A DNA stretch of 29,193 nt from IMG/VR virus record IMGVR_UViG_3300020378_000029, positions 1 through 29,193 of that record. One strand, given 5' to 3'. The position numbers and the translations under genes are program-made. Positions 11,214-27,315 of the stretch are shown piece after piece. The notes beneath the pieces were generated by a model. It made no database searches. It was not told the origin of the DNA and saw only the letters and a list, made by a program, of their open reading frames with translations. The stretch's first letter is position 1; every line of letters starts with the position of its first letter. The stretch is from a virus.

Positions 11214-11819
11214 TTACCTCAAAGCTCGTCTTAGTACACCCCTGTTAACAATCTTACGAGTGGTAAAGTTGTCATTAAGTACATTGTAATCCTGTGTTTG
11301 AGCTTCTATTTGTTCAAAGTATAATAGAGCTTCATTCTCATCAGCTTGAGTAAATCCTGATAAAGTTTGCGATCCTAATATTCTATTTTGAAATCTTCGT
11401 GCAGATTTAACTGTTATGTATCTTCTTACATGTTGAGGTAAATCTGTAAATTCTAAGAGTAAAACCATAGTAACAAAAAGAGTACCAGTAAAAGTTGTAA
11501 AACTTCGTTGTCCTCTATCATATAACCTTGTTCCTCTTTGTACAACATCAGTTTGTATTGATTGACCAGTAGTATCTACACTAACACAATTAACAGGTAA
11601 ATCTATTTCTCCATTTGTATTAGGAGTAATAGGAAAATTTATTTCTGTATTACAATGTAACCCTCTAGATTGTATTTCTACATTTGTTTCATCTAAAATA
11701 CTTTCAGCAATAGAAACGTCAGCAAGAGTTGCATCATCTAAAGATGAAACTGGAGCTTCACCTATTGATGCAAGCATAATGTTTACAGCTTGTATTTTAC
11801 TAGTCGGTGTTAATGCCAT
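11214..11819 (-). CDS. Tail tubular protein A (gp11-like adaptor)
   Basis: Encodes 201 residues, similar to T7 gp11 (196). Family features are the N-terminal AVNIMLASIGEAPVSSLDD, the helix with VEIQSRGLHCNTEINFPI, the GEIDLPVNCVSVD segment, and LYDRGQRSFTTFTGTLFVTM. The protein forms the dodecameric ring joining the portal to the nozzle. The start is preceded by AGGAAT and lies just after the terminator hairpin at 11834-11865, so this may be the first gene of the transcript segment after the capsid. It is followed 3 bases later by the tail tubular B gene. Confidence 0.92.
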   Translation of the reverse strand: MALTPTSKIQAVNIMLASIGEAPVSSLDDATLADVSIAESILDETNVEIQSRGLHCNTEINFPITPNTNGEIDLPVNCVSVDTTGQSIQTDVVQRGTRLYDRGQRSFTTFTGTLFVTMVLLLEFTDLPQHVRRYITVKSARRFQNRILGSQTLSGFTQADENEALLYFEQIEAQTQDYNVLNDNFTTRKIVNRGVLRRALR

Positions 11820-11833
11820 TTAATATTCCTAAG

Positions 11834-11865
11834 TTAAAAAAAGGAGCACCATTACGATGCTCCTT
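11834..11865 (-). terminator. Rho-independent-type terminator after capsid and PqqA-like genes
   Basis: On the minus strand an 8-bp perfect stem (AAGGAGCA / TGCTCCTT, plus positions 11841-11848 and 11858-11865) with a 9-base loop runs into a tract of consecutive T. T7 has its main terminator in the same place, just after the capsid gene 10. The plus strand beyond the stem is also T-rich, so it might act both ways. It lies between the PqqA-like gene (stop at 11876) and the tail tubular A gene (start 11819), and would give high capsid and peptide expression with reduced read-through into the tail genes. Confidence 0.85.
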
Positions 11866-11875
11866 AGTTTTAGTT

Positions 11876-11956
11876 TTATTTTTTAGCGCAAGCATATGCA
11901 TTGATTTCAAGGCCAATAGCAATAGCTTGAACTTTTGGTTTAGTCCAAATCGCCAT
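11876..11956 (-). CDS. pqqA-like: PqqA-like precursor peptide (26 residues)
   Basis: The ORF has an ATG at 11956 preceded by an AGGAG site 10 bases upstream, and lies 18 bases after the capsid gene stop. The peptide has W4-T-K6-P7 near its N-terminus, then G15-L16-E17-x3-Y21 and a short tail ending in Lys-Lys. Known PqqA peptides are 22-30 residues long and share an N-terminal W-x-K-P-type segment and a G-(L/M)-E-x3-Y core. PqqE links that Glu and Tyr, and they become pyrroloquinoline quinone. Every hallmark is present with exact spacing. No pqqB, C, D or E is seen in the window, so processing would need host enzymes; the peptide may instead serve another purpose. The motif is seen in the sequence; PQQ formation is inference. 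It would share the capsid transcript and end before the terminator. Confidence 0.82.
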   Translation of the reverse strand: MAIWTKPKVQAIAIGLEINAYACAKK

Positions 11957-11974
11957 ATTATATTTCTCCTATAA

Positions 11975-12943
11975 TTAAGCAGTTTGAATTTGAACAGCAG
12001 CTTCAGGTCTAAGAACACCATGACCAGCAGCATATTTTGCTACCATTAGTGTACCTTGTCTTCTGATGTCATATTCTGACTCTACTGCAAGATCCATTAA
12101 TTTAACTGTACCCACAGAAGATGGGTGTGCAATAATGGCCACTGTATTTGCAGCCGCAGCTACCTGTTGTCCATTAGCACCACCAGCATCGACACCAGTG
12201 CCAGTAACATTGGCAGTTGGTAGATGAGGTACTTTAATTAAATTAATACCAGCTAACTGAGGAACTTGTCCTGTTGCAATTGAACCTTGACCTGAAAAGT
12301 CAACATTCACAGCATTCGTAGCATTAGCTAAAAGATAATATTGTTCTGGTTTTAAATAACAATATCTGTCTTCCGCTGGTACATAGTTGTCATCCAAAGT
12401 TTCGGCTGCTGAGAAAATACTAGCAATTAAAGATGTTGCATTGGTATTCGCATCTGCATCAGTTATAACTGTTCCTGATGGATAACTTGTATCACCAACA
12501 TTAGCTGTAGATTCGTTTGCAGCAGCAACCATCATTTGTAAAACGTGCTTATCCATTTGGAAAGCAAGTGCTCTACCCATCTCTTGTGAGTAGATAGATC
12601 TTACATCATAATGATTTTTTGCTTCATCGATATTAGCAATGAAGTGATGTGATATTAATAGGTCATTGATTTGAATAATTTTCTCGTTGTGGTTCAAATC
12701 TGTACCTACGATTTCAGCTCCAGGGGTGTGATAAGAAGCACTTGATCTCCCCATTACGGGAAATTGCGCCGATTTTCCACTGGGTATTTGCCTGACAAGA
12801 TGTTTGTCCATTGTTACGGCAGTTCTTTCAAATGATTCCATAACCTCACCACTGAACACTTTAAGAAATAAAGAGTTTGCATTAGCATAGTTACTATCAT
12901 TTGCATTAACTGCGCCTAGTCTTGAGACTGTTGCATTAGTCAT
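11975..12943 (-). CDS. Major capsid protein (gp10-like)
   Basis: Encodes 322 residues, similar to T7 gp10A (345). It lies directly after the scaffold gene, as in T7. Recognisable segments are the N-terminal LFLKVFSGEVMESFERTAVT, the region with GKSAQFPVMGRSSASYHTPG, and the helix with DISHHF-like LLISHHFIANIDEAKNHYD, which matches the T7-like HK97-fold E-loop and spine-helix region. The protein builds the icosahedral shell. The start has a strong AAGGAG site 7 bases upstream and a 100-base leader, fitting high expression. A terminator follows after the small peptide gene. I see no frameshift signal of the T7 10A/10B kind. Confidence 0.93.
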   Translation of the reverse strand: MTNATVSRLGAVNANDSNYANANSLFLKVFSGEVMESFERTAVTMDKHLVRQIPSGKSAQFPVMGRSSASYHTPGAEIVGTDLNHNEKIIQINDLLISHHFIANIDEAKNHYDVRSIYSQEMGRALAFQMDKHVLQMMVAAANESTANVGDTSYPSGTVITDADANTNATSLIASIFSAAETLDDNYVPAEDRYCYLKPEQYYLLANATNAVNVDFSGQGSIATGQVPQLAGINLIKVPHLPTANVTGTGVDAGGANGQQVAAAANTVAIIAHPSSVGTVKLMDLAVESEYDIRRQGTLMVAKYAAGHGVLRPEAAVQIQTA

Positions 12944-27228: not shown

Positions 27229-27243
27229 AATTACTCCTTATAA

Positions 27244-27308
27244 TGGTGGACATAGTAACATGGTGATTATGGGGAAGGAAATATTGAACCATTGCTACTA
27301 TGTCACCA
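27244..27308. promoter_or_regulatory. Long imperfect dyad between integrase and RNA polymerase genes
   Basis: Outer arms of 13 bp (27244-27257 and 27296-27308, one bulged base at 27249) enclose inner arms of 5 bp (27260-27264 and 27288-27292) and a loop of about 23 bases. In minus-strand RNA the structure ends a few bases before the RNA polymerase ribosome site. No T tract follows. It could be an RNA processing or translational control element, or part of the phage attachment site, which often adjoins the integrase gene. No tRNA-like segment is evident. Confidence 0.6.
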
Positions 27309-27315
27309 AATTGTG

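Follow-up and report, generated by a model that had tools for sequence, protein, structure and literature searches.

The locus considered here raises a simple question: what is a gene for the precursor peptide of pyrroloquinoline quinone (PQQ) doing, by itself, behind the capsid gene of a T7-like phage? During synthesis of the cofactor, the Glu and Tyr of the short peptide PqqA are crosslinked by PqqE together with its chaperone PqqD, and PqqB and PqqC finish the molecule. One PqqA is consumed for each PQQ made, and the peptide is the sole component of the pathway to be so consumed. Alcohol oxidation in abundant marine bacteria, including the oxidation of methanol, is PQQ-dependent. The window, by which we mean the whole stretch of 29,193 nucleotides that was analyzed, has a GC content of 33.6% and is genuine phage DNA, with an RNA polymerase and head and tail proteins of T7-like type as well as genes for a ribonucleotide reductase and a tyrosine integrase; no tRNA gene was found in it. 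The nearest sequenced phage relatives of its capsid gene are the HTVC019P-type pelagiphages, at approximately 60% amino acid identity. Between the integrase and RNA polymerase genes (27241-27310) lies an imperfect inverted repeat, TGGTGGACATAGTA...TACTATGTCACCA, a possible att or regulatory site. The features that define the pqqA locus are as follows.

11876..11956 (stop codon included), minus strand: pqqA, encoding the 26-aa PQQ precursor peptide MAIWTKPKVQAIAIGLEINAYACAKK; TIGR02107 31.9 bits, PF08042 23.4 bits
11966..11970, minus strand: Shine-Dalgarno sequence AGGAG, 9 nt before the pqqA ATG, read from the sequence
11975..12943, minus strand: T7-like major capsid protein gene, 322 aa (phrog_267, E 2.9e-90), immediately upstream of pqqA and in the same direction
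11836..11865, minus strand: intrinsic terminator closing the capsid-pqqA unit (-16.5 kcal/mol, z -5.77)
11214..11819, minus strand: tail tubular protein A (phrog_446), the first gene past the terminator, which marks the slot

The gene is read from 11956 to 11876 (ATG GCG ATT TGG ... AAA TAA), and its product carries W4, K6, P7, G15, L16, E17 and Y21, with Glu17 and Tyr21 in E-x3-Y spacing. These residues and the ribosome site had been listed in the initial annotation, which was silent on the strand, and they are indeed present. Its placement of the gene between the capsid gene and a strong terminator also holds: 18 nt separate pqqA from the end of the capsid gene (stop codon 11977-11975), and the hairpin AAGGAGCAUC...GGUGCUCCUU-U7, which is kept in sister phages without pqqA, lies on the other side. 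Given this position, late capsid transcripts would carry pqqA. An overlapping 77-aa ORF on the minus strand (11800-12033) was considered and rejected; it covers the end of the capsid gene and the slot that is missing in sister phages. As had been claimed, the window contains no pqqB-E, in that a profile search found no pqqB and none of its ORFs of at least 60 aa resembles pqqC-E. Methanol dehydrogenase is likewise absent from the window.

By both curated models, the open reading frame is a bona fide PqqA as judged from its sequence. The NCBIfam equivalog TIGR02107 scores the peptide at 31.9 bits (E 8.4e-8) against a cut-off of 20, and the Pfam model PF08042 at 23.4 bits against 21.1; the absence of any match in 14 control genomes suggests that these scores reflect more than chance. 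The earlier identification, which had been staked on a significant profile score, is thus sound. Moreover, when the core EINAYACA was sought as degenerate DNA in a genome collection of approximately 85,000 species, 93 stretches were recovered, which nearly all encode PqqA in Alphaproteobacteria, for the most part in Azospirillum and other Rhodospirillales/Acetobacteraceae, and the exact core proved common to approximately 90 bacterial PqqAs. The window peptide departs from the consensus at A11, where most PqqAs have E or D, and in its K-K C-terminus, and it has no family in PHROGs. The pqqB-E neighborhood typical of PqqA was not encountered in the window or in the other viral loci. This neighborhood is usual and not strictly required, in view of the orphan pqqA copies found in host genomes (see below) and in a methylotroph whose five pqqA copies include three that stand alone, one of these being strongly expressed (PMC9851590).

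Comparison with near relatives suggests that pqqA is an optional gene of this phage lineage, the simplest reading being a recent gain. Four related IMG/VR contigs (L002-L005; 97-100% capsid identity) encode the identical peptide, and the sole nucleotide difference in their pqqA is synonymous, such that the lineage offers few copies and one synonymous change. Seven sister contigs with 95-97% capsid identity have the same slot and terminator and no ORF, the terminator following almost directly on the capsid stop codon; pqqA is a clean element of approximately 100 bp, present or absent between near relatives. A profile search across the complete sister records, one of them 37.9 kb long, found no pqqA elsewhere, and more distant relatives are also without it in the slot, which together make a gain in the window lineage the most economical account. 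That phages so closely related do without the gene indicates that it is dispensable. With regard to the expectation that E-x3-Y would be kept in the same slot of related phages, the immediate sisters are wholly without the gene and show no decayed copy, while other T7-like lineages carry a PqqA with E-x3-Y there.

How widely viruses carry the gene was assessed by two scans of viral contigs with degenerate DNA patterns for W-x-[K/T/A]-P-x7-G-x-E-[I/V]-[N/T]-x-Y. These recovered at least approximately 240 IMG/VR contigs with a free-standing short PqqA ORF, many beside phage genes, and two kinds of viral peptide among the matches listed, one gamma/beta-like (GFEVTMY) and the other alpha-like (GLEIN[S/C/A]YACA). 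All 26 of the 26 representative viral peptides passed TIGR02107. The representative alignment shows no variation at W, P, G, E or Y and E-x3-Y occurs in all aligned homologues, although the patterns themselves demanded W, P, G, E and Y along with [IV][NT], a requirement that accounts in part for the conservation of those residues in this set. In a second T7-like lineage (L105 and its relatives), the peptide MSWNKPQVTEVSVGLEINAYACAVQ is encoded directly behind the lineage's capsid gene, past the terminator. Among 80 capsid relatives of this lineage, fetched regardless of pqqA, the eight closest all carry the gene (8/8) in three peptide variants, in which flanking residues change while W, P, G, E and Y stay; relatives at or below 91% capsid identity are without it.

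None of these viral genes was accompanied by the remainder of the pathway. No PqqB, PqqC, PqqD or PqqE was detected at E < 1e-6 in 259 viral loci among the matches listed, in a search of approximately 2.1 Mb that included three bacterial controls, and the bacterial positive controls were found in the same search. Most of the contigs (181 of 236) extend more than 1.5 kb past pqqA, where bacterial pqqB would lie. Independent profile searches found no true PqqE in 50 records and no PqqB in the window or in seven phage records. The separation of the viral gene from pqqB-E in every case could signify that viral PqqA is a decoy, bound or modified by host PqqD/PqqE to give another product or to titrate the enzymes, leaving less host PQQ or a differently modified peptide, and the departures of the window peptide at A11 and its C-terminus would suit such a role. 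However, the invariance of W, P, G, E and Y (to some extent a product of the pattern used), the retention of E and Y amid varying flanks in the L105 lineage, which was recovered by capsid and not by pattern, and the close likeness of viral peptides to productive host ones make diversion of this sort decidedly unlikely.

Cultured phages carry the gene as well. The common gamma/beta-type viral peptide, used as a tblastn query against 50,697 phage records, matched nine Methylophilales phage records (Venkman, P19250A, MEP301, MEP401, MEP402 and four Melnitz); beyond these, the only matches were an environmental podovirus and two entries labeled "Acinetobacter phage MD-2021a." Every cultured methylophage genome turned up by the search has pqqA, the set being those with sequences in the collection; sequences of MEP431-434 and Venkman EXVC038S were looked for and not found there. 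In the methylophages examined, pqqA is unannotated or lies beneath an annotated ORF of the opposite strand, and two published descriptions of OM43 phages make no mention of it. Annotation has probably overlooked viral pqqA because the gene is only 23-26 codons long. In Melnitz-1 (L457 2461-2556) and the Manatee Spring podovirus (L458 2067-2195), a deposited hypothetical protein antisense to pqqA hides the real gene. The Acinetobacter records were rejected as phage evidence, as the one examined of the two (L459; CAKLQF020000010.1) is a bacterial contig, a piece of chromosome with ppk, pqqA, pqqB, pqqC, pqqD and a radical SAM gene. Neither the window peptide nor alpha-type queries matched any phage record by tblastn; consequently, that collection yielded no phage with a PqqA of alphaproteobacterial type.

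The genomic position of viral pqqA is informative with respect to a further proposal of the initial annotation, that of a virion or capsid-stage peptide retaining the PqqA motif. A head-protein gene lies directly upstream of pqqA in at least 26 of 188 contigs (16+5+5; three capsid protein kinds), and the gene follows a capsid gene in at least five lineages, as a structural peptide might. Nevertheless, the proposal gains nothing from the survey as a whole. The upstream neighbors of viral pqqA form 104 sequence clusters among the matches listed, and its neighbors include, beyond head proteins of four PHROG families, portal, terminase, holin, endolysin, RegA and ssb; in the methylophages it is surrounded by genes of recombination, of replication or of unknown function, and it often runs in the opposite direction to them. 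A structural role, furthermore, is not expected to conserve the residues that PqqE crosslinks, and we regard it as very improbable. Other genes were noted near viral pqqA in passing: a peroxiredoxin (AhpC-like) gene follows it in two loci (L227 3888-4481 and L308) and may be a further auxiliary gene or a sign of host sequence, and in L422, L369, L260 and their relatives a gene resembling sugar-nucleotide transferases (heptose adenylyltransferase family) and one for an Hsp20-type heat shock protein are among the neighbors.

Patterns of substitution bear on whether the peptide does anything at all. At the codons left free by the search pattern, to which the computation was confined, pN/pS was 0.31 overall and 0.12 for close pairs among 183 distinct gamma/beta-type sequences, and 0.40 overall and 0.31 for close pairs among 31 alpha-type sequences. 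Given that the pairs lack independence and that synonymous sites approach saturation, these values (approximately 0.12-0.40) are indications of purifying selection and not estimates. Were pqqA a neutral hitch-hiker, that is, a recently acquired host fragment devoid of function, its patchy occurrence among near relatives would be readily understood. Such a fragment would not, however, be expected to recur across many unrelated phages and in every cultured methylophage genome recovered, or to show synonymous-biased change and a well-formed ribosome site in a genome that is otherwise economical, and we consider this explanation unlikely.

The window phage probably infects a PQQ-producing alphaproteobacterium, and a marine one with a streamlined, low-GC genome is plausible. 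Among 385 sampled Alphaproteobacteria, the PqqAs nearest the phage peptide come in part from genomes of low GC content (27-37%) and small size (0.8-1.4 Mb), whose marine habit we infer from size and composition. Several of these bacteria have pqqABCDE near a PQQ-dependent alcohol dehydrogenase, and some (L620, L621, L623, L624) have one or two extra orphan pqqA far from pqqBCDE, in ordinary chromosomal or housekeeping surroundings that are not obviously prophage. A lone pqqA therefore occurs in such bacteria, as it does in the methylotroph mentioned above. A search with the integrase-adjacent att-region DNA returned AT-rich chance matches only, and the integrase protein has no close relative in the 385 sampled Alphaproteobacteria. 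Two peculiarities of these genomes were recorded: a TonB-dependent-receptor-like gene immediately preceding pqqABCDE in one low-GC genome (L625 2376-4634), which may encode an importer of a metal or of PQQ, and an in-frame TGA in the PqqE of a host-like genome (G188, locus L633), attributable to assembly error or decay.

Having weighed these data, we think it probable that the window ORF is a functional pqqA serving as an auxiliary metabolic gene, feeding host PqqB-E the substrate that is consumed and sustaining PQQ-dependent alcohol oxidation in infection. Late in infection, the viral peptide would be bound by host PqqD, its Glu17 and Tyr21 would be crosslinked by host PqqE, and host PqqB and PqqC, together with a protease, would complete PQQ. 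The extra cofactor would then keep PQQ-dependent methanol/alcohol dehydrogenases supplied during the shutdown of host gene expression. Because PqqA is the only component consumed one per PQQ, the phage would need pqqA alone to raise flux, and an arrangement whereby the phage supplies the substrate and the host the catalysts would explain the lone pqqA, its frequent late high-expression slot and its occurrence in phages of methylotrophs. Homology to a host metabolic gene and its acquisition are evident in the core shared identically with alphaproteobacterial PqqA and in the clean insertion relative to sister phages. Among the options first offered for this peptide, that of an auxiliary metabolic gene is strongly favored by the free-standing gene in at least approximately 240 viral contigs and nine cultured methylophage records, the absence of pqqB-E and the synonymous-biased change. 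A different use of extra PQQ would be superinfection exclusion, with the cofactor saturating a PQQ-binding outer-membrane receptor of competing phages; in E. coli, PQQ blocks a phage that uses the PQQ importer PqqU (PMC12124388). Yet PqqU is largely absent from Alphaproteobacteria (PMC12124388), the group whose PqqA the window peptide resembles, and there is no known link of pqqA phages to PqqU, and we give this use very little credence. Each of the four rivals (diversion, a virion role, neutral carriage and superinfection exclusion) is less likely than an auxiliary metabolic gene.

Viral pqqA as a kind is already known from Lake Baikal, where it was reported in the phage population VP_266, described as methylotroph-infecting and as carrying methanol dehydrogenase (PMC7678222), and pqqA is listed in reservoir viruses (PMC13188868). 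The literature searched appears to contain no report of how widely the gene occurs, of its carriage by cultured methylophages, of its recurrent position behind the capsid gene, of an alphaproteobacterial type in T7-like phages or of the fact that pqqB-E are consistently missing. We lean toward a general strategy in which unrelated tailed phages of PQQ-dependent bacteria, especially methylotrophs, have repeatedly gained pqqA, often behind the capsid gene, to control host PQQ with a lone consumable precursor peptide instead of an enzyme. If phages do control PQQ through the substrate peptide only, the logic would be unlike that of enzyme-type auxiliary metabolic genes, and infection would be tied directly to the ocean methanol cycle. 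As pqqA has been missed or annotated antisense in cultured methylophages, the idea is testable with existing virus-host pairs, such as Venkman or Melnitz on Methylophilales H5P1; the oversight also warns that small-ORF cut-offs conceal functional viral genes.

Set against known systems, the HTVC019P-type pelagiphages, the closest sequenced relatives by capsid, share the gene order around the slot with the window, but tblastn found no PqqA in them, nor did it match any other pelagiphage record. Bacterial PqqA (TIGR02107/PF08042) resembles the window peptide in length, in the W-x-K-P start, in the G-x-E-x3-Y core and in passing both cut-offs, and that of Azospirillum and other Rhodospirillales has the identical core, whereas the window copy is phage-encoded and occupies a slot between capsid gene and terminator without pqqB-E alongside. 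The cultured methylophages (Venkman, P19250A, MEP301, MEP401/402 and Melnitz) similarly have a free-standing pqqA and no pqqB, but differ in their gamma/beta-type peptide (GFEVTMY), genome positions and Methylophilales hosts. The Baikal population VP_266 offers a precedent in interpretation, its pqqA having been taken for an auxiliary metabolic gene that serves the PQQ-dependent oxidation of methanol (PMC7678222). That case concerns one representative genome with methanol dehydrogenase, whereas the window belongs to a T7-like phage with an alphaproteobacterial-type PqqA and no such enzyme gene in the window, and the present survey extends to at least approximately 240 viral contigs and to cultured methylophages.
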